In this document: positions 13,402 to 49,282 of the stretch, piece by piece
Layout of the letters: each line of letters starts with the position of its first letter
How positions within the stretch are numbered: the stretch's first letter is position 1
Assembly: GCF_014701235.1 (NCBI RefSeq)
Contig: NZ_AP022873.1
Location: 930,001 to 994,000 of the forward strand
Length of the DNA stretch: 64,000 nt
Direction: 5' to 3'
DNA from: Dissulfurispira thermophila
Lineage (GTDB): Bacteria; Nitrospirota; Thermodesulfovibrionia; Thermodesulfovibrionales; Dissulfurispiraceae
Notes under the pieces: generated by a model
The model's input: only the letters and a program-made list of their open reading frames with translations
The model's database searches: none
What the model was told of the DNA's origin: nothing
Program-made: the position numbers and the translations under genes

Positions 13402-13425
13402 TTTTTAGTCTATGAAGGAGAAGGG

Positions 13426-14292
13426 ATGAAAATTTATCTTTTATCATTTTTTATCATTTTTACATCTTTTGTTAATGTTGCTTATTCTGCCCAATCCACT
13501 ATCACTGAATCCGAAGGCTATGCATGCATGGGAGAGGATAGGACAAAGAGACAGACAGAAGAGACAGCCTTTCAGGATGCAAAAAGAAAGGCTGTTGAGC
13601 AGGTCAGCACCTACATACAGTCCGAGACACAGGTTAAGGATTTTGAGTTACAGAAGGATATTGTAAATGCTTATACTAATGCAAAGGTAAGGATAATAGA
13701 GTCTCATGCAAAATGGGATAATGAGCCTCCGAGGATAGGGGATTGCTATAAGATCAAGATAAAGGCAGAGGTCATACCTAATGAAGATACAATGAAAAAG
13801 ATATCCCAGTCAAAAGAATTTGATGACCCATCTGCACCACTTAAGGTTCAAGTCTGGACAGATAAAAAGGAGTATGAGAGCGGAGAGAAGGTAAAGATAT
13901 ATATCAAAGGAAACAAGCCTTTTTATGCCATTGTTCTGTATAATGATGCCAAGGGGGAATTACTGCAATTGCTGCCAAATCCTTATAGAAAAGACAATTA
14001 TTTCAATGGTGGTGTAGTTTATGAAATCCCTTCAGGAAATGACCGATTTGAATTGGAGGTCAGCCCTCCATTTGGTGAAGAAAAGGTTTTTGTTTATGCA
14101 GCTACATCAGCACTTGGAGATATAAATGTAGAGGATATAGGAGGGGTATATCAAGTAAAAACAAGGCATGCTGATATAGGAGATAGGACAAGGGGTATTA
14201 AGTTGAAAGAAAAAACATCGAATAAGGGTATGACTGCGTCAGAGTTTTTCGAGGGAGTGGTGGTATTGAAAACAGGAGGATATAAAAAATGA
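13426..14292 (+). CDS. Exported DUF4384 protein with LPP20/FlgT-like N-terminal domain
   Basis: Signal peptide at residues 3-21. Residues about 25-125 ('GYACMGEDRTKRQTEETAFQDAKRKAVEQV') resemble the LPP20/FlgT N-terminal fold. Residues about 140-240 are a DUF4384 beta domain ('SGEKVKIYIKGNKPFYAIVLYND', in part; 'LLQLLPNPYRKDNYF'). DUF4384 is repeatedly found beside caspase-like proteases. It overlaps the WD40-caspase gene by 4 bases. A second protein of this plan lies at 43070. Confidence 0.78.
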   Translation: MKIYLLSFFIIFTSFVNVAYSAQSTITESEGYACMGEDRTKRQTEETAFQDAKRKAVEQVSTYIQSETQVKDFELQKDIVNAYTNAKVRIIESHAKWDNEPPRIGDCYKIKIKAEVIPNEDTMKKISQSKEFDDPSAPLKVQVWTDKKEYESGEKVKIYIKGNKPFYAIVLYNDAKGELLQLLPNPYRKDNYFNGGVVYEIPSGNDRFELEVSPPFGEEKVFVYAATSALGDINVEDIGGVYQVKTRHADIGDRTRGIKLKEKTSNKGMTASEFFEGVVVLKTGGYKK

Positions 14293-17177
14293 GCAACTTA
14301 AGATGTTTAATGAAAAGGGCATGTTATCTATCTGTAATGATTTTTGTTCTGTTTTACAATTGGGTTTATGCAGGAGAGCCTCCATCAGAGCCGATCTTAA
14401 GGATTGAGACAGAGATGCATACTGCAATGATTGGAAGAATCAGCATAGATAGGGATGAGAGATTCCTTGTAACTGGCTCAGATGACAAGACCATCAGGTT
14501 ATGGGAATTAAGGACTGGAAAGCTTCTTAAGACACTAAGACCACCAATAGATGAGGGCAATGAAGGCAAGATCTATGCAGTAGCCATATCCCCTGATGGA
14601 AGGTATATTGCAGGAGGTGGATCGACAGGATATGAATGGGACAAAACTGAATCTATCTACATCTTTGATAGGGAAAGAGGTGCCCTCATAAAGAGGATAG
14701 ACGGTCTGCCAGAAGTAATACTTCATCTTTCCTTTTCAAAGGATGGCAGGTTCCTTATTGCAGGGCTTGGGGGCAATAATGGCATAAGGATTTATTCTAC
14801 GAAGGACTATTCACTCATAAAGGAGGATAAAGACTATGGAGATAGTGTCAATGGCTTTGACCTTAGTAGTGATAGAAGGCTTGTGGTAAGCTCCCTTGAT
14901 GGTTACATAAGGCTTTATGATAAAGAGTTTAATCTAATAAAAAAAGAGAAGGCACCAGGTGGAAAACGACCTTATCACATATCTTTTTCTCCTGATGGCT
15001 CAAAGATAGCAGTAGGATATGAGGATACACCAGATGTTGACATTATCTCAGGCTATGACCTTAAGAGCCTCTACAAAGCAGATACATCAGGGTTTTCTAA
15101 ATGTGATTTTGGCAGTGTCACATGGTCTTATGATGGGATGTTTTTGTATGCTGGTGGAAGATGCCAAAAGCTATTTGATGGCAAACCGAAAGATATCATC
15201 CGTCGTTGGGGTAATGGTGGTAAAGGTGGTTTTATTGATATACCTGTGGCAGAAAATACCATCATGCACATCCTTCCACTTAAGGGCAATGGAGTTGCCT
15301 TTGCCTCTGGTGAGCCATCCTTTGGTATAGTTGATGGAGTTGGAAGGATCAGCCTTTATAAAGGAAATGCAATAGCTGACTTAAGGGATCAATGGGAAAA
15401 ATTCCTTTTATCCTATGATGGCTCTACTGTGAGATTTGGCTATGAGGTATTGGGTAATTCCCCAGCAGTCTTTGATGCAGAAAAAAGGGAGCTTAAGATA
15501 GGTGAAAAAACCTCTTTAAGGCTTTTACCACCAATCTTTAAGACAGAAGGGATAAATGTAACAGACTGGAAGAGCAATTACAATCCCAGACTCAATGGAA
15601 AGCCTATTAAACTTGAGCAGTATGAAATTTCAAGAAGCCTTGCCATATCACCTGATGGGAAGAGGTTTGTATTAGGCACAGGGTGGCTTTTAAGATGTTT
15701 TGATAAAGATGGCAATGAGCTATGGAATGTCCCGGCACCCGGCACTGTTTGGGATGTAAATATCTCTGGAAATGGAAGGGTAGTGGTTGCTGGACTTGCT
15801 GATGGCACAATAAGGTGGTTTAGGATGGAGGATGGAAAGGAACTCCTTGCCCTATTTCCGCACAAAGACAAAAGACGCTGGGTCTTATGGACACCAAAGG
15901 GCTACTATGATGCAAGCCCAGGTGGAGAAGAGCTCATTGGCTGGCACATAAACAATGGAAAGGATAGCTCTGCAGACTTCTATCCTGTGGGAAGGTTCAG
16001 GGATAGGTTTTATAGACCAGACATAATTGCAAAGCTCTTTACAACCTATGATGAGGAAAGAGCTATTGCCCTTGCCAATGAAGAATCTGGAAGAAAGAGG
16101 GTAGAGACCTCCATAAAAGACATTCTTCCACCAGTAATCACCATCCTTTCACCAGCAGACGGTACAAGCATATCAAAGAAAGAGCTCACAGTAAGATACT
16201 CCCTCAGAAATCCATCAGGAGAGCCAGTAACAGCAATAAAGGTCCTGATTGATGGAAGACCAGTATCAGGGCAGAGGGGACTTATAATCAAACCAAAGGG
16301 TGAAGAGGTTGGAAAGCTTAATATTACAGTTCCAGAGAGGGACTTTGAACTTAGCCTCATTGCAGAGAATAAATACTCAGCAAGTGTCCCAGCAACTGTA
16401 AGGCTTTTCTGGCGGGGAAAGAAGGAAGAATTCATTGTAAAGCCAAAGCTATATATCCTTGCCATAGGGATAAGCAGATACAAGGATGAACACTTAAGGC
16501 TACAGTTTGCCCATAAGGATGCAGAGGATTTTGTAAAAACAATGAAGAAACAGAAAGGGAAACTCTATGAAGATGTAGTTGTCAAACTCCTTACAGATGA
16601 AAGGGCAACAAAGGATGAGATCCTTGATGGACTTGACTGGCTACAGAAAGAGACAACCCACAAGGATTTGGCAATGCTTTTTATAGCAGGGCATGGGATA
16701 AATGACACTGCAGGGATATATTACTTCCTTCCCCAGAATGCAGACATTGAAAAGTTAAAAAGGACAGCAATAGCCTTTTCAGACATAAAAAACACAGTCT
16801 CATCCCTTGCAGGCAAGGTAGTTATGTTTGCTGACACCTGCCATTCTGGAAATGTAATGGGCAAAAGGGCAGTGACAGACATAACAGGAGTGATAAATGA
16901 ACTTGCCAGTGCAGAAAACGGAGTTGTTGTATTTGCCTCATCCACTGGAAGGCAGTATTCCCTTGAAGACCCTGAGTGGAGAAACGGTGCATTCACCAAA
17001 GCAGTTGTGGAAGGCATACAGGGAAAGGCAGACCTTCTGGGCAAGGGCAAGATAACAGTAAACATGCTTGATGCCTTCATCGCAGAGCGAGTAAAGGAGC
17101 TCACAAAGGGCAGGCAAACACCAGTTACCACAAAACCCGTAACAGTGCCAGATTTCCCCGTGGCTGTCAGAAAGTAA
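14289..17177 (+). CDS. Exported WD40-repeat caspase-like protease (C14), copy A
   Basis: A 962-residue protein: signal peptide (about 10-28), a WD40 propeller (about 35-540; 'LVTGSDDKTIRLWE', 'AISPDGRYIAGGG', 'SLDGYIRLYD'), a beta-sandwich linker ('PPVITILSPADG'), then a caspase-like domain at about 720-960. The catalytic dyad is His802 (FIAGHG) and Cys851 (ADTCHSG). The propeller is the likely sensor and the C14 domain the effector, working outside the cytoplasm. It overlaps its neighbours by 4 bases (upstream) and 1 base (downstream). About 1.8 kb encoding residues 318-928 is identical to copy B (22765). Its protein target is unknown. Confidence 0.88.
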   Translation: MSNLRCLMKRACYLSVMIFVLFYNWVYAGEPPSEPILRIETEMHTAMIGRISIDRDERFLVTGSDDKTIRLWELRTGKLLKTLRPPIDEGNEGKIYAVAISPDGRYIAGGGSTGYEWDKTESIYIFDRERGALIKRIDGLPEVILHLSFSKDGRFLIAGLGGNNGIRIYSTKDYSLIKEDKDYGDSVNGFDLSSDRRLVVSSLDGYIRLYDKEFNLIKKEKAPGGKRPYHISFSPDGSKIAVGYEDTPDVDIISGYDLKSLYKADTSGFSKCDFGSVTWSYDGMFLYAGGRCQKLFDGKPKDIIRRWGNGGKGGFIDIPVAENTIMHILPLKGNGVAFASGEPSFGIVDGVGRISLYKGNAIADLRDQWEKFLLSYDGSTVRFGYEVLGNSPAVFDAEKRELKIGEKTSLRLLPPIFKTEGINVTDWKSNYNPRLNGKPIKLEQYEISRSLAISPDGKRFVLGTGWLLRCFDKDGNELWNVPAPGTVWDVNISGNGRVVVAGLADGTIRWFRMEDGKELLALFPHKDKRRWVLWTPKGYYDASPGGEELIGWHINNGKDSSADFYPVGRFRDRFYRPDIIAKLFTTYDEERAIALANEESGRKRVETSIKDILPPVITILSPADGTSISKKELTVRYSLRNPSGEPVTAIKVLIDGRPVSGQRGLIIKPKGEEVGKLNITVPERDFELSLIAENKYSASVPATVRLFWRGKKEEFIVKPKLYILAIGISRYKDEHLRLQFAHKDAEDFVKTMKKQKGKLYEDVVVKLLTDERATKDEILDGLDWLQKETTHKDLAMLFIAGHGINDTAGIYYFLPQNADIEKLKRTAIAFSDIKNTVSSLAGKVVMFADTCHSGNVMGKRAVTDITGVINELASAENGVVVFASSTGRQYSLEDPEWRNGAFTKAVVEGIQGKADLLGKGKITVNMLDAFIAERVKELTKGRQTPVTTKPVTVPDFPVAVRK
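15240..17072. repeat. Long direct repeat (about 1.83 kb), copy A
   Basis: I find no base difference and no indel against 23695-25527 (constant offset 8455). It covers the last blades of the WD40 propeller, the linker and most of the caspase domain. The repeat ends at a G/A difference (17073/25528). Confidence 0.85.
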
Positions 17178-19324
17178 TGAAGTCACATAGATTTTTTATA
17201 TTTATTGCAATAGGGATTGCATCTGTCATCTTTACAGTTGCCTTATATGCGGCAAGAGTAGATTTTTTTAATTCCCTTGACCTAAAACTCAAGGATGTCA
17301 GATTCAGGGCAAGGGGAAATGTAGAGCCGGACAAAAGGGTTGTTATTGTTGCTATAGATGAAAAGAGCATCAACGAGCTTGGCAGATGGCCGTGGGACAG
17401 AAAGACTATTGCAAGGCTTGTTGAAAATCTTAATTTCTATGGCGCAAAGACTATTGTTTTTGATGTTATCTTTTCAGAGCCATCCAATGAAGTATCAGAT
17501 AGGGCATTGTCAGATGCAATCCTGAAAAGTAACAATGTAATACTCGGTTATTTTATGAGGTCAGAAGGAGAACCTCCTTTAAAGGAATCGCTTGCACTGC
17601 TTGAAGACACGAGGATAAAGATTGTTAAGACTATAGGTAATGTTACCGAAGTGCCTGTCTATAGCTTTCCATCTATTGAGTTGAATATCCCTATTATTGC
17701 AAAATCTGCGCACGGCGCAGGCTATTTCAATATCATTCCAGATAGTGATGGGATTTTAAGGTCAGTTAATATCTTGATGCTATATGACGGAAATATTTAT
17801 CCATCGCTGGCACTTTCAGCATTGAGACATTATACAGGAAGCGAGATAGTCCTTGAGATCGCCAATTACGGCGTTGACAATCTCCTCATAGGAAGCTATC
17901 GCATACCATGTGATGAATCAGGAAGGCTCACACTTAATTACTACGGCAAGCAAGGGACATTCAGAACCATACCTGCTGTTGATATAATCAAAAAAAGACT
18001 CAAGCACGATGAATTGAAAGATTCTCTTGTCTTTATCGGGGCAACAGAAATAGGTCTTTCTGACCTCCGTGCAACACCTGTTGATCCTGTGCTGCCTGGT
18101 ATAGAAGTTCATGCAACAGTTGTATCCAATGCCCTTCAGAACAAACTCCTAATAAAGGACGGCAGGGTAATAGCATTGGATATTTTATTTATTATAATCT
18201 TTGCCCTTATGCTGACCACGTCGTTGAGTCTTGTCAGAAGGACGCTTGCTGCACTTATACTATTTCTGGTGGTGCTTGGACTTTACTACATTACAAATCA
18301 TCTTGTCTTTAAGCATTATCCGTTAAACACATCTGTGCTATTTCCGCTTATTTCGATAACCCTTTCGTATTTTGGCTCAGAGGCATACAGGAATCTATTT
18401 GAAGAAAGACAAAGCAGATTTCTTAAAAAGGCTTTCTCAAGTTATGTGTCTCCTGAACTTGTTAGCGAAATAATGAAGAGGCCTGACATGCTTAAGCTGG
18501 GCGGCGAAAAAAGAGAGATAACCGTCTTATTTTCTGATATACGGGGATTTACAACACTTTCTGAAAGGCTTACGCCTGAATCGCTTGTCTCTGTCTTAAA
18601 TCAGTACCTTAGCCCTATGACAGATATTGTTCTTAAAAATAAGGGGACGCTCGATAAATATATTGGTGACGCAATAATGGCAATATATAATGCACCTTTA
18701 AACATACATGACCATGCTGCACTCGCATGCAAGAGTGCTATTGAAATGCTCGAAAGGCTTAAAGATATTAATAATTCATTCAAAGAAAAAGGACTGCCTG
18801 AGATTGATATCGGAGTTGGCATAAACACAGGTGAGGTGATTGTAGGCAATATGGGAACTGATATGAGATTTGATTATACGGCTATTGGTGATACAGTGAA
18901 TCTTGCATCAAGGCTTGAAGGTATGAACAAGGTTTATAAGACTCACATTATTATAAGTGAGTTTACATTCAGGTATTTGACCCGTTTGAACGATTTAACT
19001 CATAAGGTAATAGTTCAACACAGTTTAAATAGTTCAACATTGTATATTAGAGAACTCGATATGATAAAGGTCAAGGGTAAGGATAAACCTGTCACCATCT
19101 ATCAGGTCTCTTCAGATATGGATGAGGTGTTGATTAACAAATTTGAAGGGGCATTGCAACTTTACAGAAAACAGCAATTTAAAGAGGCAAGGGAGGTATT
19201 CGAAATGCTTGAAGCAGAATACAGTGATAAGACCGCCGGTGTATTTGCTGAAAGATGTGCTGAGTTTATAAATAATCCGCCAGGCGATAATTGGGACGGT
19301 GTATATGTTGCAAAAATTAAGTAA
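17177..19324 (+). CDS. CHASE2-domain class III adenylate cyclase
   Basis: A 715-residue membrane protein: N-terminal span (about 7-24), extracytoplasmic CHASE2 domain (about 30-330), three spans (about 335-400), then a class III cyclase (about 445-645). The metal-binding Asp residues are D454 (FSDIRGF) and D498 (GDAIM). Lys494 (LDKYIGD) and Asp566 (FDYTAIGD) are the adenine-choosing pair, so the product should be cAMP. The C-terminus (about 660-715) is TPR-like. It starts on the last base of the caspase stop (TAATG). It probably reports an envelope signal as cAMP; a CRP-type receptor gene lies at 35846. Confidence 0.9.
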   Translation: MKSHRFFIFIAIGIASVIFTVALYAARVDFFNSLDLKLKDVRFRARGNVEPDKRVVIVAIDEKSINELGRWPWDRKTIARLVENLNFYGAKTIVFDVIFSEPSNEVSDRALSDAILKSNNVILGYFMRSEGEPPLKESLALLEDTRIKIVKTIGNVTEVPVYSFPSIELNIPIIAKSAHGAGYFNIIPDSDGILRSVNILMLYDGNIYPSLALSALRHYTGSEIVLEIANYGVDNLLIGSYRIPCDESGRLTLNYYGKQGTFRTIPAVDIIKKRLKHDELKDSLVFIGATEIGLSDLRATPVDPVLPGIEVHATVVSNALQNKLLIKDGRVIALDILFIIIFALMLTTSLSLVRRTLAALILFLVVLGLYYITNHLVFKHYPLNTSVLFPLISITLSYFGSEAYRNLFEERQSRFLKKAFSSYVSPELVSEIMKRPDMLKLGGEKREITVLFSDIRGFTTLSERLTPESLVSVLNQYLSPMTDIVLKNKGTLDKYIGDAIMAIYNAPLNIHDHAALACKSAIEMLERLKDINNSFKEKGLPEIDIGVGINTGEVIVGNMGTDMRFDYTAIGDTVNLASRLEGMNKVYKTHIIISEFTFRYLTRLNDLTHKVIVQHSLNSSTLYIRELDMIKVKGKDKPVTIYQVSSDMDEVLINKFEGALQLYRKQQFKEAREVFEMLEAEYSDKTAGVFAERCAEFINNPPGDNWDGVYVAKIK

Positions 19325-22300
19325 TTCCCAATTTAGCGATAAGGATAAGTCTCTTTCGTTCAGAAGCTCTGTTTTGACAGCTCTAATAATGCTCCTTTCG
19401 CTACAACCGCAAAACTCCCTTCGCTCAAACACTTGCGGCTGTTTAAAGCTCCGGTCGCAAAGAACTGTTACCAAAACATCGCTATTCACTTCAGAGACCC
19501 ATCCTTATCGCTGGATTTGGGTCTTATGTTTATTAGTTTTGGTTGTATTTTGTGGCAACCTCTTTGCCCAGCCAAGAAATGAAGCAGAGAGGCTGTGGGA
19601 ACTGGGAGATAAAGCATATGAAAGTGGAAGATACAAGGAAGCAATCTCCTATTATGAAAAGTCCCTTACATTATGTGGAAGAGATTATTATGAATGCTAT
19701 GCCAATAACTACCACGGTCTTGGCGCATCCTATGAAGGCATGGGTGATGATAACAGAGCAATTTTTTATTACGAAAAAGCGATTGATGCTGAAAGAAGAC
19801 TCGGGAATAAAGAATGGCTTGCCACAGATTTGCTTCTTGCAGGTTCTATATACTCTCGCAAAGCAATAGATTTCAACAAAGCATATAACTATCTTGAAGA
19901 ATCAAGAAGACTTTTCAGTGAAATCGGTGCTAAAGACTCTCTTCCCATCGTATATCATGAACTTGGGAAGGTTGCAAGGGCTATTGGCAAGTTTGACAAA
20001 GCTCTTTCAAGCTTAGATGAGTCTTTGAGACTTTACAGACAAAATAGAGATGAAAATTCCGTTGGAGCAAATCTTTCTCAAATAGGATTAACATATTCTA
20101 AGATGGGACAGTATGAAAGGGCTCTCTCATACTATGAAGAAGCTCTTAAAATTGCAAAAAAGTCCAATGATCCAGTAGGCACATCAATTGTCCTGCGAGA
20201 GATTGCGGATGCATATTGTGACCTTTACAAACATGACAGGGCAATCTCCTATTATGAAGAGGCAATAGAGATTCAGAAGAAAAGCAATCTTAAACAGGAA
20301 TTGGGAACAACTCTAAATAATCTTGGCACACTTTATATGGACATGCACAGATATGAAAGGGCTCTCTCATACTATGAAGAGGCATTAAAACTGGCAAGAC
20401 AGGAAAAAGACTTGCCAACAATCGCAACCATTTTAAACAACATTGGGCATGTATGTGGAAAAATGGGTTACTCTAACAAAGCCCTTGAATATCATAGAAA
20501 ATCACTGGAGATTGAAGAGAAGCTTCAAAGACCTTTTGCACTCGTTTATGTATTAAACAACATTGGCATGGAGTATTTCAGAGCAGGCAGATATGATGAG
20601 GCTCTGAAATACCTGAATCAAGCACTTGAGATTGATAGAAAGCTCAATAATCCGACTTTTATTGAAACAAGACTTAATAACATCGGAGCGGTTTATCTAA
20701 AGCAGGGAAGACTGAAAGAGGCAGAACAGGTATTCCTTGAAAGAAAAAGGCTTGAAGAAAGAATCAAGCCAAACAGAATGCTTCATCAAGGGCTTATAGA
20801 GGTATATCTTCTAACAGGAAGATATGATTCTGCTTTAAGGCTTGCAAATGAGATTCCACCTTCATGGAGAGATAATCCAAACAGGCACTTTGAGTATTAT
20901 ACTCAGGCAGGGCTGGCATTGAAGGGCAAGGGGGCTTTGCAAGAATCAGCAATCAATCTGATGAATGCTATAAACATAGTTGAGGATATGAGACAGTCCA
21001 TCACTGAAAAAGGACAATTTTTTGCTGGAGGTGGATATTACGGAAGGCTTACTCCATACAAAGCCATAATATCAGTTCTTTATGAGATTGCGGAAAAAAA
21101 CTATAATCTTACTCCTGGTAGCAAAATAACTTTCACACCAGAGGCTTCATCATGGCAAGTTCGCACAAGAAGAAGCGCTTTTAACTTTTCAACCTTTGGA
21201 CAGGATCCTGCATCCGCTGCCTTTTATTTTTCTGAGCTTACAAAAGCCCGCACACTTCTTGAGGCAATGGCAGGTGCTGCAAGAAAAACAATGAGCGAAG
21301 AAATACCAAAGAATTTAAAAGAATCTGAAGATAGACTTCTACAGGAGCTTTCATATATTGATAGCAGATGGGCGGAGGCATTAAAAAAAGGCGAACAGGC
21401 AGTAAAACAGCTTCAGCAGAAGAGGGAAGGAGTTAAAAAACAGCTTGATGTATTGATAGAAGTGCTGAGAAAGCATCATCCAAGATATGCAGCACTCCAT
21501 TATCCTCTTCCAATTAAAGCCGAAGAACTACCATTGAGAGAGAATGAAGTTTTATTTGAGTATGCCATAACCGATGATGCCACATATTTATTCGTTATCA
21601 AAAAAGGCGGTGTAAAAAGCCTTATAAAAATACCTTTGACAAGGCAGTCCCTTGAAGATATAGTAAAATCCTTCATTGAGCCAATGAATACGAGGAATCC
21701 ATCAATATTTTCAGTTAGTATGGCTAAAAAACTATATGGAGCACTGCTTTCAGAGGCATTGAAAGAGGTAAAAGAAAATGAAAGAATAATCATCGTTCCT
21801 GATGGAATTTTGGGATTACTTCCCTTTGAAGCACTCATCATAAAGGAAGGAACAAGTATCAAAGACAGCACATATGTTGCAGACAAATACACAATCACCT
21901 ATTATCAATCAGCAACAATAATGGCACTTCAGAGGATTTTAAAAGAAACACAGCCGGAAAAGCCTCTTTTTGCCCTTGGAAACCCAGTTTACAGCAAGGA
22001 TGACCCAAGATACATTGCATGGAGACAGGGAAGAAAGGATGTGCAATTTGCAAATCTCAATCAATATGCCTTCAGAGGGCTTGCAATAAAAGCAAAATGG
22101 GGTGCTGTCACAGAGCAAGACAGAGAAGACAAGGTAGTGTTTCCACCACTTTTAGAGACAGAAGATGAAGTAAGAGAGATTGCAGAGATAATGGGAGTAA
22201 AGCCTGAACCTCCACAGGTTTTGCTCTCAGTAATGGCTAATGAGACAAACTTAAAGAGAGCAGGGCTTGAAAAATACAGATATATTCATTTTGCAACCCA

Positions 22301-22715
22301 TGCATCACTTCCAGGAATGGTTCAGGGAATAAATGAGCCATTTATTTTGCTTTCTCAGGTTGAAAATAAAGGAGATGATGGATTTTTAACGCTTAGTGAG
22401 GTTACAGGCATGAAACTCAATGCAGATATGGTTGTTTTGTCTGCATGTGTTACAGGTGTTGGCAAGGAGGTTGAAGGAGAAGGAGTTGTAAATTTTGCAA
22501 GGGCATTTCAACAGGCAGGAGCAAAGGCAGTGATAGTGAGCCTCTGGGAAGTTGCATCTGATCCAGCAGTGGAATATATGAAGACTTTTTATAGACATCT
22601 GAAATCAGGTAAGAGCAGGGCAGAGGCAATGAAGCTCACAAGGGCTGAGATAAAGACAAAATATCCCAATCCATTCTACTGGGCAGTGTTTATATTGCAT
22701 GGTGAAGGCATTTGA
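19299..22715 (+). CDS. TPR-CHAT protease, probably exported
   Basis: A 1138-residue protein. At least nine TPRs (about 95-520; 'YERALSYYEEALKLAR' type), an alpha-helical linker, and a CHAT domain (about 830-1137) with catalytic His1001 (HFATHAS) and Cys1050 (LSACVTG). CHAT is a caspase relative (separase/TPR-CHAT type). A hydrophobic segment 'WVLCLLVLVVFCGNLFAQ' at about 70-90 looks like a signal peptide or anchor but is preceded by about 68 odd residues encoded partly by a palindromic repeat (19407-19438). The start (GTG 19299, 26 bases into the cyclase gene) is therefore uncertain; no better start with a ribosome site is seen. Confidence 0.83.
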   Translation: MYMLQKLSNSQFSDKDKSLSFRSSVLTALIMLLSLQPQNSLRSNTCGCLKLRSQRTVTKTSLFTSETHPYRWIWVLCLLVLVVFCGNLFAQPRNEAERLWELGDKAYESGRYKEAISYYEKSLTLCGRDYYECYANNYHGLGASYEGMGDDNRAIFYYEKAIDAERRLGNKEWLATDLLLAGSIYSRKAIDFNKAYNYLEESRRLFSEIGAKDSLPIVYHELGKVARAIGKFDKALSSLDESLRLYRQNRDENSVGANLSQIGLTYSKMGQYERALSYYEEALKIAKKSNDPVGTSIVLREIADAYCDLYKHDRAISYYEEAIEIQKKSNLKQELGTTLNNLGTLYMDMHRYERALSYYEEALKLARQEKDLPTIATILNNIGHVCGKMGYSNKALEYHRKSLEIEEKLQRPFALVYVLNNIGMEYFRAGRYDEALKYLNQALEIDRKLNNPTFIETRLNNIGAVYLKQGRLKEAEQVFLERKRLEERIKPNRMLHQGLIEVYLLTGRYDSALRLANEIPPSWRDNPNRHFEYYTQAGLALKGKGALQESAINLMNAINIVEDMRQSITEKGQFFAGGGYYGRLTPYKAIISVLYEIAEKNYNLTPGSKITFTPEASSWQVRTRRSAFNFSTFGQDPASAAFYFSELTKARTLLEAMAGAARKTMSEEIPKNLKESEDRLLQELSYIDSRWAEALKKGEQAVKQLQQKREGVKKQLDVLIEVLRKHHPRYAALHYPLPIKAEELPLRENEVLFEYAITDDATYLFVIKKGGVKSLIKIPLTRQSLEDIVKSFIEPMNTRNPSIFSVSMAKKLYGALLSEALKEVKENERIIIVPDGILGLLPFEALIIKEGTSIKDSTYVADKYTITYYQSATIMALQRILKETQPEKPLFALGNPVYSKDDPRYIAWRQGRKDVQFANLNQYAFRGLAIKAKWGAVTEQDREDKVVFPPLLETEDEVREIAEIMGVKPEPPQVLLSVMANETNLKRAGLEKYRYIHFATHASLPGMVQGINEPFILLSQVENKGDDGFLTLSEVTGMKLNADMVVLSACVTGVGKEVEGEGVVNFARAFQQAGAKAVIVSLWEVASDPAVEYMKTFYRHLKSGKSRAEAMKLTRAEIKTKYPNPFYWAVFILHGEGI

Positions 22716-22764: not shown

Positions 22765-25629
22765 ATGAAACTCATTAAACTTACAACCATCATCCTTATC
22801 CTTATCAATGCCCTATACTGCCTTGCAGGAGAACCTCCAAGAGAGCCGATCTTAAGGATTGAGACAGAGATGCATACCACAATGATTAATCGCCTCAGCA
22901 TAGACAGGGATGAGAGATTCCTTGTAACTGGCTCATTTGACAAGACCATCAGGTTATGGGAATTAAGGACTGGAAAGCTTCTTAAGACACTAAGACCACC
23001 AATAGATGAGGGCAAAGAAGGCATGATCTATGCAGTAGCCATATCCCCTGATGGAAGGTATATTGCAGGAGGTGGCTGGACAGGAGGCAAATGGGACAAA
23101 ACTGCCTCCATCTACATCTTTGATAGGCAAAGAGGTGCCCTCATAAAGAGGATAGAGGGTCTGCCAGAAGTAATACTTCATCTTTCCTTTTCAAAGGATG
23201 GCAGGTTCCTTATTGCAGGGCTTGGGGGCAATAATGGCATAAGGATTTATTCTACGAAGGACTATTCACTCATAAAAGAGGATAAAGAGTATGGAGATAG
23301 TGTCTTTGGCTTTGACCTTAGTAGTGATAGAAGGCTTGTGGTAAGCTCCCTTGATGGTTACATAAGGCTTTATGATAAAGAGTTTAATCTAATAAAAAAA
23401 GAGAAGGCACCAGGTGGAAAACGACCTTATCACATATCTTTTTCTCCTGATGGCTCAAAGATAGCAGTAGGATATGAGGATACACCAGATGTTGACATTA
23501 TCTCAGGCTATGACCTTAAAAGCCTCTACAAAGCAGATACATCAGGGTTTTCTGAATGTTCTTTTGCCAGTGTCACATGGTCTTATGATGGGATGCTTTT
23601 GTATGCTGGTGGAGGATGCCAAAAGCTATTTGATGATAAATGGAAAGTTATCATCCGTCGTTGGGATAATGGTGGTAAAGGTGGTTTTATTGACATACCT
23701 GTGGCAGAAAATACCATCATGCACATCCTTCCACTTAAGGGCAATGGAGTTGCCTTTGCCTCTGGTGAGCCATCCTTTGGTATAGTTGATGGAGTTGGAA
23801 GGATCAGCCTTTATAAAGGAAATGCAATAGCTGACTTAAGGGATCAATGGGAAAAATTCCTTTTATCCTATGATGGCTCTACTGTGAGATTTGGCTATGA
23901 GGTATTGGGTAATTCCCCAGCAGTCTTTGATGCAGAAAAAAGGGAGCTTAAGATAGGTGAAAAAACCTCTTTAAGGCTTTTACCACCAATCTTTAAGACA
24001 GAAGGGATAAATGTAACAGACTGGAAGAGCAATTACAATCCCAGACTCAATGGAAAGCCTATTAAACTTGAGCAGTATGAAATTTCAAGAAGCCTTGCCA
24101 TATCACCTGATGGGAAGAGGTTTGTATTAGGCACAGGGTGGCTTTTAAGATGTTTTGATAAAGATGGCAATGAGCTATGGAATGTCCCGGCACCCGGCAC
24201 TGTTTGGGATGTAAATATCTCTGGAAATGGAAGGGTAGTGGTTGCTGGACTTGCTGATGGCACAATAAGGTGGTTTAGGATGGAGGATGGAAAGGAACTC
24301 CTTGCCCTATTTCCGCACAAAGACAAAAGACGCTGGGTCTTATGGACACCAAAGGGCTACTATGATGCAAGCCCAGGTGGAGAAGAGCTCATTGGCTGGC
24401 ACATAAACAATGGAAAGGATAGCTCTGCAGACTTCTATCCTGTGGGAAGGTTCAGGGATAGGTTTTATAGACCAGACATAATTGCAAAGCTCTTTACAAC
24501 CTATGATGAGGAAAGAGCTATTGCCCTTGCCAATGAAGAATCTGGAAGAAAGAGGGTAGAGACCTCCATAAAAGACATTCTTCCACCAGTAATCACCATC
24601 CTTTCACCAGCAGACGGTACAAGCATATCAAAGAAAGAGCTCACAGTAAGATACTCCCTCAGAAATCCATCAGGAGAGCCAGTAACAGCAATAAAGGTCC
24701 TGATTGATGGAAGACCAGTATCAGGGCAGAGGGGACTTATAATCAAACCAAAGGGTGAAGAGGTTGGAAAGCTTAATATTACAGTTCCAGAGAGGGACTT
24801 TGAACTTAGCCTCATTGCAGAGAATAAATACTCAGCAAGTGTCCCAGCAACTGTAAGGCTTTTCTGGCGGGGAAAGAAGGAAGAATTCATTGTAAAGCCA
24901 AAGCTATATATCCTTGCCATAGGGATAAGCAGATACAAGGATGAACACTTAAGGCTACAGTTTGCCCATAAGGATGCAGAGGATTTTGTAAAAACAATGA
25001 AGAAACAGAAAGGGAAACTCTATGAAGATGTAGTTGTCAAACTCCTTACAGATGAAAGGGCAACAAAGGATGAGATCCTTGATGGACTTGACTGGCTACA
25101 GAAAGAGACAACCCACAAGGATTTGGCAATGCTTTTTATAGCAGGGCATGGGATAAATGACACTGCAGGGATATATTACTTCCTTCCCCAGAATGCAGAC
25201 ATTGAAAAGTTAAAAAGGACAGCAATAGCCTTTTCAGACATAAAAAACACAGTCTCATCCCTTGCAGGCAAGGTAGTTATGTTTGCTGACACCTGCCATT
25301 CTGGAAATGTAATGGGCAAAAGGGCAGTGACAGACATAACAGGAGTGATAAATGAACTTGCCAGTGCAGAAAACGGAGTTGTTGTATTTGCCTCATCCAC
25401 TGGAAGGCAGTATTCCCTTGAAGACCCTGAGTGGAGAAACGGTGCATTCACCAAAGCAGTTGTGGAAGGCATACAGGGAAAGGCAGACCTTCTGGGCAAG
25501 GGCAAGATAACAGTAAACATGCTTGATACCTTCATCGCAGAGCGTGTAAAGGAGCTCACAAAGGGCAGGCAAACACCAGTTACCACAAAACCAGTAACAG
25601 TGCCAGATTTCCCCGTGGCAGTGAGATGA
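22765..25629 (+). CDS. Exported WD40-repeat caspase-like protease (C14), copy B
   Basis: A 954-residue twin of the 14289 gene, with its own signal peptide (about 5-21). The catalytic dyad is His795 (AGHG) and Cys844 (DTCHSG). The C-terminal two thirds equal copy A apart from one Ala/Thr change near the end. The first 310 residues differ from copy A at about 25 positions, many at matching places in the WD40 blades (TGS-D/F-DKTIRLW; GGG-S/W-TG; DSV-N/F-GF), which suggests altered ligand specificity with a fixed effector. A strong GGGAGGT lies before the ATG, after a 49-base gap with a word repeat (GAACTTT) and a small GCCC/GGGC hairpin. Confidence 0.88.
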   Translation: MKLIKLTTIILILINALYCLAGEPPREPILRIETEMHTTMINRLSIDRDERFLVTGSFDKTIRLWELRTGKLLKTLRPPIDEGKEGMIYAVAISPDGRYIAGGGWTGGKWDKTASIYIFDRQRGALIKRIEGLPEVILHLSFSKDGRFLIAGLGGNNGIRIYSTKDYSLIKEDKEYGDSVFGFDLSSDRRLVVSSLDGYIRLYDKEFNLIKKEKAPGGKRPYHISFSPDGSKIAVGYEDTPDVDIISGYDLKSLYKADTSGFSECSFASVTWSYDGMLLYAGGGCQKLFDDKWKVIIRRWDNGGKGGFIDIPVAENTIMHILPLKGNGVAFASGEPSFGIVDGVGRISLYKGNAIADLRDQWEKFLLSYDGSTVRFGYEVLGNSPAVFDAEKRELKIGEKTSLRLLPPIFKTEGINVTDWKSNYNPRLNGKPIKLEQYEISRSLAISPDGKRFVLGTGWLLRCFDKDGNELWNVPAPGTVWDVNISGNGRVVVAGLADGTIRWFRMEDGKELLALFPHKDKRRWVLWTPKGYYDASPGGEELIGWHINNGKDSSADFYPVGRFRDRFYRPDIIAKLFTTYDEERAIALANEESGRKRVETSIKDILPPVITILSPADGTSISKKELTVRYSLRNPSGEPVTAIKVLIDGRPVSGQRGLIIKPKGEEVGKLNITVPERDFELSLIAENKYSASVPATVRLFWRGKKEEFIVKPKLYILAIGISRYKDEHLRLQFAHKDAEDFVKTMKKQKGKLYEDVVVKLLTDERATKDEILDGLDWLQKETTHKDLAMLFIAGHGINDTAGIYYFLPQNADIEKLKRTAIAFSDIKNTVSSLAGKVVMFADTCHSGNVMGKRAVTDITGVINELASAENGVVVFASSTGRQYSLEDPEWRNGAFTKAVVEGIQGKADLLGKGKITVNMLDTFIAERVKELTKGRQTPVTTKPVTVPDFPVAVR
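23695..25527. repeat. Long direct repeat (about 1.83 kb), copy B
   Basis: Second copy of 15240-17072. The identity even at silent sites implies recent duplication or ongoing gene conversion. Confidence 0.85.
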
Positions 25630-26223
25630 ATGGGACAAATTGAAATGGAAACAAAATGTATCTTATATCGGGTTCTGTATATAATTTTTGTTACATTTTT
25701 TCTTCAGTCCTGCTCGTGGCTAACAGAGTTTTTTGTGCTTAATAGCTCAAAAGATCAGATAGTTGTTACTTTCAAATATCCAGTGGAGATAGAGAGAACA
25801 ACTCCATACCTTGAAAGATTGAAAATAGAAAATCCCAAACTTTATGAAGCAACAAAGCCTACTCCTTGTAAGTTTGAAAAAGAAATAAAAAACCGCTGGT
25901 TTCCAAAGATATGTGATGAAAATTTAGAAAACTGCAGATTATTACAATCTAATGAATTCATCTACAATCAAGACGAATGCTTTGTGGAAATACATTTAAA
26001 ACCCAGTCAGTCCATCAAATTATTTGAAATCTGCTGTAACTATACTGGCACACCTGAAGAAAAAGATAATGGCAGATCTATTGCTGATGTCATCAATGTT
26101 ATGAGCCTTACCATCAAGTCCCCGGATGAGACAAAGGTTTACAAAGGGATTAAACTCATGAGGGCGTTTAAAAAGATTGATAAGACAAAATATGTAATAG
26201 AATATAAGGGGGATAAGAAATGA
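25630..26223 (+). CDS. Cysteine-rich lipoprotein of unknown function
   Basis: A 197-residue protein with a hydrophobic N-terminus (about 11-26) and lipobox 'FLQSC' with Cys28. The mature part contains several cysteines (TPCKF, KICDENLENC, DECF, EICCN) that could form disulfides. I do not recognise the family. It begins immediately after the stop of caspase copy B and overlaps the next gene by 4 bases, so it belongs to the operon. A surface-anchored partner or inhibitor would fit, but this is a guess. Confidence 0.6.
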   Translation: MGQIEMETKCILYRVLYIIFVTFFLQSCSWLTEFFVLNSSKDQIVVTFKYPVEIERTTPYLERLKIENPKLYEATKPTPCKFEKEIKNRWFPKICDENLENCRLLQSNEFIYNQDECFVEIHLKPSQSIKLFEICCNYTGTPEEKDNGRSIADVINVMSLTIKSPDETKVYKGIKLMRAFKKIDKTKYVIEYKGDKK

Positions 26224-26588
26224 AACAGGTAAAGCCAGGGCGAGTGCCATCTTTGATGGAGTTTATTGGATCAATTATAGCCATTCTATTCGGAATATTC
26301 TGGACAATAGGTGCTATTTCATTAGAAGCTCCATTTGTTTTTCCTCTGTTTGGGTTTGTATTTATTATTGCTGGGATAGGAATGGCTGTTTATCATTACA
26401 ATAATGCCTTTGGTAAAAGACGCATTTCTGAATATGACATCATTGACACATCAGAAGAAGATGAGACTATCAAACAGATAAGAGATGAAAAGGATGATGT
26501 AGAGACTGCAGGTTATTGTCCATATTGTGGAAATCCCGTAAAAGAAGTATTCTTATTTTGCCCGAAATGCGGGAGAAGGATTAAGTAA
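26220..26588 (+). CDS. Small membrane protein with C-terminal zinc ribbon
   Basis: A 122-residue protein with two membrane spans (about 13-33 and 38-58), an acidic linker, and a zinc ribbon (CPYCG...CPKCG) at about 100-118. Zinc-ribbon membrane proteins of this shape are common and uncharacterised. The ribbon should face the cytoplasm if the N-terminus is inside. It overlaps the upstream lipoprotein gene by 4 bases and lies 19 bases before the serpin gene. Confidence 0.7.
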   Translation: MKQVKPGRVPSLMEFIGSIIAILFGIFWTIGAISLEAPFVFPLFGFVFIIAGIGMAVYHYNNAFGKRRISEYDIIDTSEEDETIKQIRDEKDDVETAGYCPYCGNPVKEVFLFCPKCGRRIK

Positions 26589-26607: not shown

Positions 26608-27840
26608 ATGGGTAATAGACTTAAACATTTTTTACTAACAATTATTCTGGGAGTAATTTTTATTTTTAGCCCTTTGCCCTGCAAGGCTGAAGATATCGTT
26701 GATGGAAACAATAAATTTGCTTTTGATTTATACTCAAATCTCACACAGGGTAAAGAGGATAAAAATGCATTCTTCTCGCCCTTCAGCATAGTCTCTGCAA
26801 TGGGTATGACCTATGAAGGAGCAAAGGGAAAGACAAAAGAAGAGATGCAAAAGGTCTTTCATTTTCTGGTAGATGATAAGGCTCGCAGAGAAGGGTTTCT
26901 CAAACTAATCAGTGAGATAAATAAAAAAGACAAAAAATATGAACTCCACACTGCCAATGCCCTCTGGGTTGATAAGAGCTATAAAATTTTAGAAGATTAT
27001 CTTAAAACAGTTGAAAAATATTATTACGGCAAGGCAACGAATGTTGGATTTATTGACCCATCAGAAAGAGAGCAGACAGTATTTTTGATAAATAGCTGGG
27101 TTATGGGGAATACAAAAGGTAAAATCAAAGATATTATAAAGCCACAGGCAGTGTCTCATGATACAAGACTAATCCTTACAAATGCGATATATTTCAAAGG
27201 CAAGTGGAAGCTCCAGTTTGATAAAAAATTAACAAAAGATGAGGACTTCAAGGTTTCAACAGAGAAAAAATTAAAGGTGCCAATGATGAGAATGGCTATG
27301 AAAGGGTTTAATGACTACCCTGAGTTTAACTATGCTGAAACAGATGAACTGCAAGCCATTGAACTTCCCTATGAAGGAGAAGAACTCTCAATGCTAATAT
27401 TACTTCCAAAGGGAAATCTTGAGGGTATAGAAAAGACTTTGACCTATGAAAGAATAGAGGAGATAAAAAGAAGTTTAAGTTTAAGACCTGTTGATTTATA
27501 TCTACCAAAGTTTAAGTTTGAAACAGAATACTCACTCAAGCCAGTATTTGCTGATATGGGGATGCCAACTGCTTTTTCTAATGATGCTGATTTTTCAGGC
27601 ATGGATGGCACAAAGAAGCTTAAAATAGATAAAGTAATCCATAAGGCATTTGTTGAGGTCAATGAAGAAGGCACAGAGGCAGCAGCAGCCACTGCAGTGA
27701 TCATGGTAACAAAGTCTGCAGTGGAAGAAGTAAAAAAGCCTGTCATCTTCCGTGCAGACCATCCATTTATCTTCATAATTCAGCATAACAAAACAAGTGC
27801 TATACTGTTTTTCGGCAGAGTGCATGAGCCGAAGAAATAA
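26608..27840 (+). CDS. Exported serpin (serine/cysteine protease inhibitor)
   Basis: A 410-residue complete serpin. Signal peptide at 8-26 (cleavage near CKAED). Serpin core marks: 'NAFFSPFSIVSAM' (about 52), 'LILTNAIYFKGKW' (about 190), 'ELPYEGEELSMLILLPK' and 'ADHPFIFII' near the C-terminus. The reactive loop has an inhibitory hinge (G355-T-E-A-A-A-A), and counting from P15 places P1 at Lys369 and P1' at Ser370. It should therefore trap proteases that cut after Lys. It lies between two exported caspase-like genes, 14 bases before one of them. Regulating those proteases is the obvious hypothesis. Confidence 0.9.
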   Translation: MGNRLKHFLLTIILGVIFIFSPLPCKAEDIVDGNNKFAFDLYSNLTQGKEDKNAFFSPFSIVSAMGMTYEGAKGKTKEEMQKVFHFLVDDKARREGFLKLISEINKKDKKYELHTANALWVDKSYKILEDYLKTVEKYYYGKATNVGFIDPSEREQTVFLINSWVMGNTKGKIKDIIKPQAVSHDTRLILTNAIYFKGKWKLQFDKKLTKDEDFKVSTEKKLKVPMMRMAMKGFNDYPEFNYAETDELQAIELPYEGEELSMLILLPKGNLEGIEKTLTYERIEEIKRSLSLRPVDLYLPKFKFETEYSLKPVFADMGMPTAFSNDADFSGMDGTKKLKIDKVIHKAFVEVNEEGTEAAAATAVIMVTKSAVEEVKKPVIFRADHPFIFIIQHNKTSAILFFGRVHEPKK

Positions 27841-27854
27841 GATTGAGGTGTGAG

Positions 27855-30800
27855 ATGAGAAAGGAGATATTCATATTTTTAATAGCTTTGGCAGGTCTTT
27901 TAATGGGCTTTAATCATACCCTTTTTGCCTCTGAAAAGCCCGAGATTTTTGTGCAGTTGGGGCATTCTGATACGATTCAATCTGCATCTTTTTCATCTAA
28001 TGGAAGATATCTTGTTACAGCTGATCCTCATCTCATTAAGATCTGGGAGGTTGGTACATGGAAGGAAATTAGAACTTTTAAAAATGAGAAGGAGATTAAC
28101 ACTGTTAATCTTTCTCCTGATAACAGAACTATTGTTTTAGGTGACAAAGAAGGAAACATAAAGTTTTTGGACATTCAGACAGGTAAGATATTCGCAAGTC
28201 TTAAGTCTAAATATGGAGTCGAATTTCTATCATTTTCTCCAGATGGAAAACATATTATTTACTCACACTATCCGGGAATTGTTTACATTGATTTGTCAAC
28301 GCAAAAACAGCTTTTTGAAATAAAAAAGGAGTCTCAGATAGTAAAAGCTGCTACTTTCTTATCAAGTGGAAAATTAATAGCAATGGGAGTAGATGACTAT
28401 GAAATTCCAATTTATTCTTATCCTAAAAGAACAAAAATAGATATTTATGATGTTGTAAAAAGAAAAGTTATTAAAAGTTTTAATCTATATAAAAAAACTG
28501 GCAGTACAAATGAAGAAATATGGAATATGGTAGTCTCTCCTGATGAGAGATATTTTCTCATAAATAGTGTTGTAAGAGATGAAAATCGATCAACTGATAA
28601 AAGTGGAAAACTATATATTGTTGATGCAAAAACTGGCAATACAATTAAAGATATTGTTTCATCTGATATTTATCATTCCTTTACCTTTTCGCCTGATGGC
28701 AAATTTATTGTAACTGCAAAATTTGGGAAAGTATTATTTTTAAACATAGAGGACTGGAAGATATTGCGAGAAGGCGATGGTAGCCTGCCAGTAGCTTTTT
28801 CTCCAGATAATCGTTTTTTTGTGTATAGCAATAAGCTTAACACCCTGGATGTTATTGATGTTCAATCATGGCAAAAAATTGCAACCCTGTCAGGGAATAC
28901 TTCTTTTCAGAAATCTCCAATCTTTAGCTTGCAGGAAGATGGATTTTTAACGATAGATAGCCGTAGTGATGTAGATATTAATTATTGGGATTTAAAAAAG
29001 GGGTTGCTGAAAAATAGCAGTGCACCTTTACTTAGCCCAAGCAATGAACACCTTGTAACGATTAAAATTAGTAGGGATGGGAAATTAAGTGTAATGAATA
29101 ATCAAAATGGGGAGGGAAGTTATCTTTTTAATTTTGAGAATGGCAAATTAGAAAAGATATTAGCAAAATCTATAGGTAATGTAGATTTTAGTCTTGATAA
29201 TAGGTTCCTTTTATTTTCAACATATGACAGAAAAATTGTTCTGTGGGATTTAAAAGAAAATCGAGAGGTTAGCACTCTGTTTGATAAAAGGAATAATGAT
29301 AAGATTCATATAAAGATTGTCGGATTTGCGCCGGATGGCAAATATGCCTTTGCAGGATACGATGAATATTATTATGAAGAAAATGGTGTATTAGATAGTC
29401 GTTACATAACGAAACTATGGAATATTTCAACCGGTCGAGAAATCAAAACATTTAAAGCTCACAATAATGTCTATACGCAAGCAATCTCGCCCGATGGTAA
29501 GTATATTCTTTCCGCAGAGTTTTCAGGCTCTGAGGATTTTCTTGTTTTAAGGGAAATAACAAGTGGTAGAATATCTAAGAAATTCAAAGGTCATAGCGAC
29601 AGTATATATAAAACGGCTTTTTCGCGTGATGGAAAGTATATAGCTTCAGGCGGCAACGATCAGGCCATAATAATATGGGATGCGAAATCAGGAAGACAAA
29701 TAAAGGTTCTTCGTGGGCATAGTGGAACTATTTGGTCCCTTACTTTTTCGCCGAATGACACACGGCTGATTTCTACAAGTTTTGACGGCACAACTCACCT
29801 CTGGGACATTTCTACTGGCAAAGAGCTTGCCCAGTTCATTGCCTTCACTGACGGTGAATGGATAGTTATTACTCCTGAGGGTTATTACAATGCGTCCCCT
29901 AATGGCGACAAGCATCTCAATGTCCGCATCGGAAATAATGTCTATGGCATTGAAAACTATCGCGAGGCATTTTACCGTCCAGACCTTGTAAAGCTTGCCC
30001 TTTCTGGCGGTTCGCTTAAGGAATATAAGACCTTAGCTGATGTAAAACAGCCACCTGTGGTAGAGATAATTGATACTCCATTAAGCATAGAAAAAGATGA
30101 GATAAAGGTTACTGTGAGGCTTACAGACCAGGGTGGTGGTATAGGAGATGTGAGGCTCTATCTCAATGACACCGCTGTATTGGTTGACAGCTCAAGGGGG
30201 ATAAAGATTACTCCAAAACCTGGAGAGAAGTCCATTTATAAAACTTACACAGTAAAACTCTTAAATGGTGAAAATGTCATAAAAGCCATTGCATTCAACG
30301 GTGACAACACTATGCAGAGTAACCCTGCTGTGCATAAGGTCGTGGCAAGCCTCGGGATTAAAAAGCCTTCCATGTATGCAGTTGCAATTGGTATCAATGA
30401 ATACAAAAACCCCAAGCTTGAGCTCAAATATGCAGTGGCAGATGCAAAACTTTTTGCAGAGACATTAAAGCAGGTTGCCACACCATTATTTGAAAAGGTA
30501 GATGTGAAGCTGTTGACTACAAAAGAGGAGACCACAAAGGAGCACATTAAAAAAATCCTTGATGCATACAAAAATCTCAATCCAGAGGATGTCTTTGTCT
30601 TTTATGTGGCAAGCCATGGCACAGTGGATGAGGGAGAGTATTTTCTCATTACAAGCAATGTGGGCTCACTTAGCACCTTCAGGCTTAAGGAGAATGCCCT
30701 AACACAGGCAGAACTGAAGGAACTCATAGCAAATGTGCCATCAACAAAGAAAATGATAGTAATAGACACCTGTAATGCAGGAAAACTTGGAGAGGCACTG

Positions 30801-31127
30801 CAAGTTGCAATGCTTACCCGTGGCATGAGTGAGGAGACAGCAGTAAAGATACTCTCAAAGGCAGTAGGTTCAACGATTATATCAGCATCCACATCACTTC
30901 AAGAAGCACTTGAGGGTTATCAGGGCCACGGGCTATTTACCTATGTGCTTGCAGAAGGCTTAAGAGGCAAAGCAGATACAGATAGAGATGGATTTATCAA
31001 GACCTTTGAACTTGCCACCTATGTGGACAGTGAGGTGCCAGCCCTGGCTGAGAGGGTATTCAAGCGTGACCAGTACCCAACAGCAACACCAACAGGGCAG
31101 GCATTTCCAGTGGGAAGGATTAGATAA
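27855..31127 (+). CDS. Exported WD40-repeat caspase-like protease (C14), third member
   Basis: About 1090 residues: signal peptide (3-25), long WD40 region (about 35-640; 'GHSDSIYKTAFSRDGKYIAS', 'IWDAKSGRQIKVLRGHSG'), a beta-sandwich linker, and a caspase-like domain (about 830-1090). The dyad is His921 (VASHGT) and Cys973 (IDTCNAG). It is clearly related to copies A and B in layout ('GYYNASPNGD' against their 'GYYDASPGGE') but diverged throughout. ATG 27855 with GAGGTG just ahead is preferred to TTG 27843. It is the last protease of the operon. Confidence 0.87.
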   Translation: MRKEIFIFLIALAGLLMGFNHTLFASEKPEIFVQLGHSDTIQSASFSSNGRYLVTADPHLIKIWEVGTWKEIRTFKNEKEINTVNLSPDNRTIVLGDKEGNIKFLDIQTGKIFASLKSKYGVEFLSFSPDGKHIIYSHYPGIVYIDLSTQKQLFEIKKESQIVKAATFLSSGKLIAMGVDDYEIPIYSYPKRTKIDIYDVVKRKVIKSFNLYKKTGSTNEEIWNMVVSPDERYFLINSVVRDENRSTDKSGKLYIVDAKTGNTIKDIVSSDIYHSFTFSPDGKFIVTAKFGKVLFLNIEDWKILREGDGSLPVAFSPDNRFFVYSNKLNTLDVIDVQSWQKIATLSGNTSFQKSPIFSLQEDGFLTIDSRSDVDINYWDLKKGLLKNSSAPLLSPSNEHLVTIKISRDGKLSVMNNQNGEGSYLFNFENGKLEKILAKSIGNVDFSLDNRFLLFSTYDRKIVLWDLKENREVSTLFDKRNNDKIHIKIVGFAPDGKYAFAGYDEYYYEENGVLDSRYITKLWNISTGREIKTFKAHNNVYTQAISPDGKYILSAEFSGSEDFLVLREITSGRISKKFKGHSDSIYKTAFSRDGKYIASGGNDQAIIIWDAKSGRQIKVLRGHSGTIWSLTFSPNDTRLISTSFDGTTHLWDISTGKELAQFIAFTDGEWIVITPEGYYNASPNGDKHLNVRIGNNVYGIENYREAFYRPDLVKLALSGGSLKEYKTLADVKQPPVVEIIDTPLSIEKDEIKVTVRLTDQGGGIGDVRLYLNDTAVLVDSSRGIKITPKPGEKSIYKTYTVKLLNGENVIKAIAFNGDNTMQSNPAVHKVVASLGIKKPSMYAVAIGINEYKNPKLELKYAVADAKLFAETLKQVATPLFEKVDVKLLTTKEETTKEHIKKILDAYKNLNPEDVFVFYVASHGTVDEGEYFLITSNVGSLSTFRLKENALTQAELKELIANVPSTKKMIVIDTCNAGKLGEALQVAMLTRGMSEETAVKILSKAVGSTIISASTSLQEALEGYQGHGLFTYVLAEGLRGKADTDRDGFIKTFELATYVDSEVPALAERVFKRDQYPTATPTGQAFPVGRIR

Positions 31128-46014: not shown

Positions 46015-46086
46015 AATAAAATCTATGAGGGAATAGTCTCATTGAGATAGGCTGTTTTGTGATAAAATAGTCATCAAGGGGGTGAG

Positions 46087-46836: not shown

Positions 46837-46872
46837 TTATTACTTCAAAAAAGATTTTTCAGGCGCCGGAGG

Positions 46873-49187: not shown

Positions 49188-49200
49188 TTAAGTAAGATAG

Positions 49201-49264
49201 TAAAAAGACTCAACCAGCTTGAGCCAGATGACTGGGCAGAGGCTACGGTGGTTTATAGGATTGA
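49201..49264 (+). repeat. Orphan 64-bp copy of the DUF4384 gene end
   Basis: Identical to 43845-43908, the last codons of the 43070 gene ('KRLNQLEPDDWAEATVVYRI'). No start and no upstream part of that gene is present. It marks the left edge of a duplicated unit that ends with the second ANK-caspase. Confidence 0.85.
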
Positions 49265-49282
49265 AAGATAAGGCTTGGATTT

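Follow-up and report, generated by a model that had tools for sequence, protein, structure and literature searches.

The serpin gene examined here lies in a tightly packed string of genes, all on the forward strand (12352–32206, +), within the 64-kb stretch of Dissulfurispira thermophila DNA that was analysed (the window). The string comprises, in this order, the genes for a FecR-domain protein, a DUF4384 protein, the protein WD40-C14_1, a CHASE2-cyclase, a TPR-CHAT protein, WD40-C14_2, a 197-aa and a 122-aa protein, the serpin, WD40-C14_3 and a DUF2330-like protein (Table 1). CHAT is a protease domain of the caspase fold, and the TPR-CHAT protein is predicted to be exported if its start is placed at the downstream hydrophobic segment. 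The genes WD40-C14_1 and WD40-C14_2, located about 8 kb apart, share 98.2% DNA identity over 2,803 bp and are the result of a recent duplication. The CHASE2-cyclase matches the PADLOC models of Pycsar cyclases (2.4e-28), probably only through the common cyclase domain. Scans for promoters and terminators gave results at background level.

Table 1. Features of the window. Positions are counted from its first nucleotide.
Feature	Position	Strand	Remarks and basis
FecR-domain protein and DUF4384 protein	12352..14292	+	head of the gene string
WD40-C14_1	14289..17177	+	predicted exported; Pfam
CHASE2 – adenylate/guanylate cyclase membrane protein	17177..19324	+	Pfam
TPR-CHAT protein	19299..22715	+	PF12770, 2.1e-58; His and Cys motifs of the CHAT domain kept
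WD40-C14_2	22765..25629	+	predicted exported; upstream of the serpin; Pfam
197-aa putative lipoprotein	25630..26223	+	without Pfam match
122-aa membrane protein with zinc ribbon	26220..26588	+	directly 5′ of the serpin
Serpin	26608..27840	+	410 aa, inhibitory type, predicted exported; Pfam PF00079, conserpin alignment, reactive loop alignment
Codons of the predicted scissile bond Lys369–Ser370 (P1–P1′)	27712..27717	+	count from P15 Gly355, conserpin alignment
WD40-C14_3	27843..31127	+	WD40 beta-propeller and C-terminal caspase-like domain (~30357–31124), predicted exported; PF00656 3e-17, WD40
DUF2330-like protein, 348 aa	31160..32206	+	predicted exported; PF10092 4.1e-5, just below cut-off
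Second C14 block	44374..51352	+	secondary candidate targets: ANK-C14, frameshifted CARDB-C14, split ANK-C14 copy
ANK-C14	44374..46014	+	in the second C14 block, ~17 kb from the serpin

The serpin gene is the only one in the single-contig genome of 2,370,875 bases. The genome contains six matches to the C14 family (PF00656). All of them are found inside the window, where they span 34.8 kb, and the placement of the lone serpin gene within this span by chance has a probability of about 0.015. The original prediction described the serpin as encoded among caspase-like proteases, including both WD40-C14 and ANK-C14 proteins. This description is correct for the WD40-C14 neighbours; the ANK-C14 gene is real but belongs to the distant second block. 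Two of the six C14 genes appear to be disrupted. Duplication and decay are visible in the second block: the CARDB-C14 gene (46873–49187) carries a frameshift within the caspase domain, and the second ANK-C14 copy (50057–51352) is split and shows 97.8% identity over 780 bp to the first one.

The product of the serpin gene matches the Pfam Serpin family over almost the entire model (E=2.9e-125, residues 33–408, model positions 2–370 of 370), in agreement with its original assignment. Among the solved structures its closest relative is conserpin (E=6.7e-85), which is a designed consensus serpin, followed by chicken MENT (4.7e-83) and then by human serpin B3/B4. The conserved serpin positions (SPxS, NxIYFKGxW, G-T-E-A-A and DHPF) are kept in a 17-row alignment of relatives (A2). 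The N-terminus, MGNRLKHFLLTIILGVIFIFSPLPCKA-ED, resembles a cleavable signal peptide of approximately residues 1–27, as judged by eye and from hydropathy. The searches with NCBIfam and PADLOC returned no match for the serpin. Outside the order, archaeal sequences predominate among its nearest relatives, with 44–50% identity.

The hinge of the reactive loop, P17–P9, corresponds to Glu353–Ala361 (EEGTEAAAA, continuing as EEGTEAAAAT). It contains the small residues of the inhibitory consensus, namely Gly at P15, Thr at P14 and Ala at P12–P9, and is invariant in all four close orthologues, this genome included. With Gly355 as P15, a count of 14 further residues places P1 at Lys369 and P1′ at Ser370. 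In the HMMER alignment the P1 Arg of conserpin falls on the same Lys369. Both the inhibitory hinge G-T-E-A-A-A-A and the P1 lysine were features of the original prediction; the hinge proved identical in the four orthologues, and the two ways of locating P1 agree, with no shift of the position. Lysine is found at P1 in each of the four orthologues (this genome, G051, G039 and G002), whose serpin bodies are 67–86% identical, and it stays while the P′ side of the loop drifts. By its hinge the serpin is of the inhibitory type, and it probably acts as an inhibitor.

The gene WD40-C14_3 directly follows the serpin gene in the same orientation. Two start codons are available, a TTG at 27843 and an ATG at 27855; the latter is preceded by GAGGTG and is the likelier start. 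The distance from the serpin stop codon is 2 nt for the TTG and 14 nt for the ATG. Signal-peptide-like N-termini, recognized solely by eye and by hydropathy, are present on both proteins. This is in line with the earlier proposal of a neighbouring protease and inhibitor that are both exported, with export standing as a prediction. With a six-row alignment as input, the model of the WD40-C14_3 caspase-like (C14) domain reached a pLDDT of 79.7 and a pTM of 0.85, compared to a pLDDT of 39 for the single-sequence prediction. The model has a caspase fold. Foldseek ranked the MALT1 paracaspase and plant metacaspases first. The alignment of the model with VIA-align gave Z 20.4 for MALT1, 20.0 for the Arabidopsis metacaspase 4 (AtMC4) and 19.8 for caspase-6; since the caspases tie within 1 Z, the fold alone cannot decide between a metacaspase or paracaspase and a caspase. 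When the PDB was searched with the profile of the domain, the matches at E<=0.01 were confined to MALT1, metacaspases and a C14 protein of Geobacter. The C14 proteins reach a caspase subfamily of NCBIfam only below the cut-off.

The likely specificity of the protease can be read from an alignment (A3) of the C14 domains from the window, G002, G039 and G051. The catalytic dyad His87/Cys139 and the residues Asp29 and Asp137 are invariant in it. In metacaspases, the residues aligned with these two aspartates are those of the xDA and DxC motifs, the second located two residues before the catalytic cysteine. Metacaspases owe their cleavage after Arg or Lys to an acidic S1 pocket (PMC6657590; also PMC9820594). 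The acidic residues of S1 type that the original prediction expected in the caspase-like domain are therefore present, and from them cleavage after lysine or arginine is predicted for WD40-C14_3. Among the proteases searched in the genome (C14, C11 and trypsin), no C11 protease was found, and the three matches to the trypsin family are DegP/HtrA-like.

A loop with the sequence M/L-L-T-R-G follows the catalytic cysteine of WD40-C14_3. It is kept in all ten C14_3-type sequences that were compared and has low confidence in the C14 model. The serpin bait, M-V/L-T/S-K, resembles this loop, which raises the possibility that the inhibitor mimics a processing site of the protease. The similarity between MVTK-S of the bait and MLTR-G of the loop is exceeded by only 0.7% of the K/R sites in the window. 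For the linker, with its four K/R sites, a likeness of this degree, which was noticed post hoc, is expected by chance in about 3% of cases. The mimicry is only suggestive and is given little weight, because similar baits occur in serpins of genomes without C14 genes.

Serpins are present in 8 of the 176 genomes of the order. The serpin of this genome (G000) forms a close clade with 100/100 support together with those of G051 (84% identity), G039 (77%) and G002 (67%). Of these, G002 belongs to the same genus as this genome; G039 and G051 come from a different family. A C14 gene is located within 8 kb of the serpin gene in all four genomes of the clade, that is, in two genera and two families. 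G039 and G051 each contain a single serpin and a single C14 gene, which are 0.3 and 7.5 kb apart; the probabilities of such closeness by chance are about 0.0015 and 0.009, and the two cases are not independent. In G002 the C14 genes flank the serpin on both sides. Direct adjacency of the serpin and a C14 gene is common to this genome, G039, where the C14 gene is truncated, and G002, where a C14 scar remains. The genes for the 197-aa and 122-aa proteins precede the serpin gene in this genome, G039 and G051, the 122-aa gene being directly upstream. The serpin, TPR-CHAT, 197-aa and DUF2330 proteins of this genome are 81–86% identical to those of G051, with TPR-CHAT at 86%, whereas nearby MlaD-like genes are only about 35% identical. 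This difference indicates lateral exchange of the cassette, and because of this exchange the four linked cases cannot be regarded as independent.

The C14 genes next to the serpin are not always intact. In G002 the gene that follows the serpin is an internally deleted remnant of 96 aa, which is itself followed by another WD40-C14 gene. In G039 the adjacent C14 gene has lost the WD40 part and the signal peptide, and its C14 domain is open. The serpin gene is intact in both genomes. The DUF2330 gene upstream and the WD40-C14 gene downstream of the G002 serpin (L012 / L047 / L048) both carry large internal in-frame deletions that leave only their ends. In the serpin-free genome G127, short C-terminal pieces are all that is left of a DUF2330 gene and a second C14_3-like gene (C1:58263-58331 and 62619-62723). 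These pieces are located near an intact WD40-C14 gene and are a sign of continuing deletion in the island.

The distribution across the order shows that the serpin and the protease also occur separately. Orthologues of WD40-C14_3 with 72–88% identity in the C14 domain are encoded in seven genomes in which no serpin was detected (G127, G037, G134, G013, G054, G024 and G043). Serpins with Lys or Arg at P1 are encoded in G011, G356 and G101, the last being 75% complete, with no C14 gene detected in these genomes; the baits MATK-S and MGTK-S of G011 and G101 are nearly identical to that of the serpin studied here. A C14 gene accompanies the serpin in five of the eight serpin genomes, which is borderline (p=0.055), and the two do not co-occur across genomes as the partners of a dedicated pair would. 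The DUF2330 gene is likewise present in five of the eight, compared to 10 of the 176 genomes overall (p=1e-5), a stronger association than that of C14, and is located near the serpin in G000, G002, G039, G051 and G356. In G356 (L099:577-3380), where no C14 gene was detected, the serpin and DUF2330 genes overlap by 4 nt, and DUF2330 may be a real partner of the serpin. Near the gene of the exported G011 serpin (L049:9669-16478) lie the genes of two ankyrin proteins, one of them an ankyrin-repeat protein that carries a Kunitz domain at its C-terminus. In G101 (L100) the gene of an ankyrin protein overlaps the start of the serpin gene. The original prediction regarded the protease and the serpin as a self-contained control unit. 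This view is contradicted by the occurrence of C14_3 without a serpin in seven genomes, by the serpins without C14 and by the broken C14 genes adjacent to the serpins of G002 and G039. Together with the DUF2330 statistics, these observations speak against an obligate unit, and what remains is a facultative one.

A parallel arrangement was found in G259, a genome from another class of the Nitrospirota. Its serpin has an arginine at P1 (MEGR-S), and the gene starts about 100 bp after the gene of an exported trypsin-like protease (L103:8289-10928). This trypsin is animal-like, with the motif KDSCQGDSGG containing Asp189 and an R-IVGG activation site. This single case follows the same logic with a protease of another fold and appears to support the view of basic-P1 serpins in this phylum as partners of neighbouring exported proteases with basic specificity. 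The distant serpin loci of other phyla that were scanned have no C14 gene nearby. Clustering of the neighbour families of the distant serpins revealed housekeeping neighbours shared by the Bacteroidales serpins and no recurring protease. The HycI and M20 peptidases adjoining two archaeal serpins were set aside as targets, as they are not endoproteases with basic specificity.

We propose that the serpin is a facultative, laterally shared, exported protein and that its likeliest target is a C14 protease of its own cluster, foremost WD40-C14_3. The probability of this explanation is estimated at about 0.4. The serpin would be exported to the periplasm or to the outside of the cell and would offer its Lys369–Ser370 bond as bait. 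A protease with a basic P1 preference would form the acyl bond at Lys369, and the inserting loop would then trap it. This protease would be WD40-C14_3, encoded directly downstream, or a sister C14 enzyme of the same gene string. The serpin would be passed between lineages together with parts of a caspase-like module of the periplasm, on which it would act as an optional brake. We infer that the serpin is exported and inhibitory, which protease it targets and that it acts as a brake. The broader statement that exported serpins are gene-linked brakes on bacterial caspase-like proteases, with a bait that may mimic the processing site of the protease itself, seems to us rather doubtful.

The main rival, to which we assign a substantial though minority probability, is that the exported serpin is a general shield. 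It would guard envelope proteins from foreign trypsin-like proteases or from stray proteases of the cell, and the C14 neighbourhood would merely be an island shared by exported proteins. The serpins of the C14-free genomes G011, G101 and G356, which have similar baits with Lys or Arg at P1, are in favour of this explanation, as are the frequent occurrence of WD40-C14_3 without a serpin and, in G002 and G039, the persistence of an intact serpin next to a broken C14 gene. The Kunitz domain of the ankyrin protein near the G011 serpin would represent a second type of inhibitor. Protection from endogenous or environmental proteases has also been proposed for the prokaryotic serpins of group S (PMC8233489). 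A shield does not readily explain why the only serpin lies beside the only C14 gene in two genomes of another family, G039 and G051, why the serpin gene is tightly packed in a long same-strand string, or why the lysine at P1 persists in spite of drift on the P′ side.

It is unlikely that the serpin truly works with a different exported product of the cassette, for example the DUF2330-like protein or the 197-aa and 122-aa proteins, and that the C14 genes are hitchhiking. The association of DUF2330 with serpin genomes, the 4-nt gene overlap in G356 and the recurrence of the 197-aa and 122-aa genes before the serpin in three genomes are consistent with such a partner. However, DUF2330 occurs without a serpin in G332, G217, G124, G226 and G192, a large in-frame deletion has removed the interior of the DUF2330 gene upstream of the G002 serpin, and no known protease-like feature is recognized in DUF2330 here. 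That the serpin restrains the TPR-CHAT protease or another protease instead of the C14 enzymes is very unlikely, even though CHAT is itself a caspase-fold protease domain and the TPR-CHAT protein is 86% identical in G051, much like the serpin. A non-inhibitory serpin is likewise very unlikely: the hinge conforms to the inhibitory consensus and does not vary among the four orthologues, and the conserved serpin positions are kept across the 17 relatives.

In plants and algae, serpins are established inhibitors of metacaspases: AtSerpin1 inhibits AtMC9 and AtMC1, and CrSERPIN acts on the metacaspases of Chlamydomonas (PMC10609998, PMC10896300). As in these systems, the target proposed here has the caspase fold and, by prediction, prefers a basic residue at P1. 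AtSerpin1 and CrSERPIN are eukaryotic, and their genes are not described in those papers as linked to those of their targets, whereas the serpin studied here is bacterial, predicted to be exported and encoded beside a WD40-fused protease. Inhibition was shown for AtSerpin1 and CrSERPIN; here, we infer it. Bacterial operons of a protease and its inhibitor exist with other inhibitor folds, as in the staphopain–staphostatin and serralysin–Inh systems. There, too, the genes are located side by side and at least one of the products is exported. Those inhibitors are not serpins, the proteases do not have a caspase fold and the pairing is standard, whereas it is facultative in the present case. The pair of G259, from the same phylum, likewise combines an exported basic-P1 serpin with an exported protease of basic specificity, but the protease is a trypsin of the chymotrypsin fold. 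In bacterial metacaspases WD40 is the commonest partner domain, and operons with several metacaspases are known (PMC3501461); the WD40-fused C14 genes of the string resemble such operons. The words serpin and inhibitor are absent from the main text of that survey. The group S serpins comprise archaeal and bacterial members, and the mainly archaeal outside relatives found here would fit such a group; C14 linkage is unmentioned in the consulted passages of that paper (PMC8233489).

In the literature searched, which included few subscription papers, no report of a bacterial serpin linked to C14 genes was found. To our knowledge, no natural protease target has been established for the serpins of free-living environmental bacteria, and we know of no established inhibitor of bacterial caspase-like proteases. 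As a candidate for a bacterial serpin–caspase control pair, the serpin–C14 pair is a good one and can be tested. With its matching bait and predicted S1 pocket, this gene-linked pair offers a defined, purifiable test of both the serpin-target and the caspase-inhibitor question. The pair of G259 suggests a wider rule, according to which basic-P1 serpins would be encoded beside exported proteases of basic specificity. If the proposed explanation is true, the control of caspase-fold proteases by serpins would exist in bacteria besides plants and algae.
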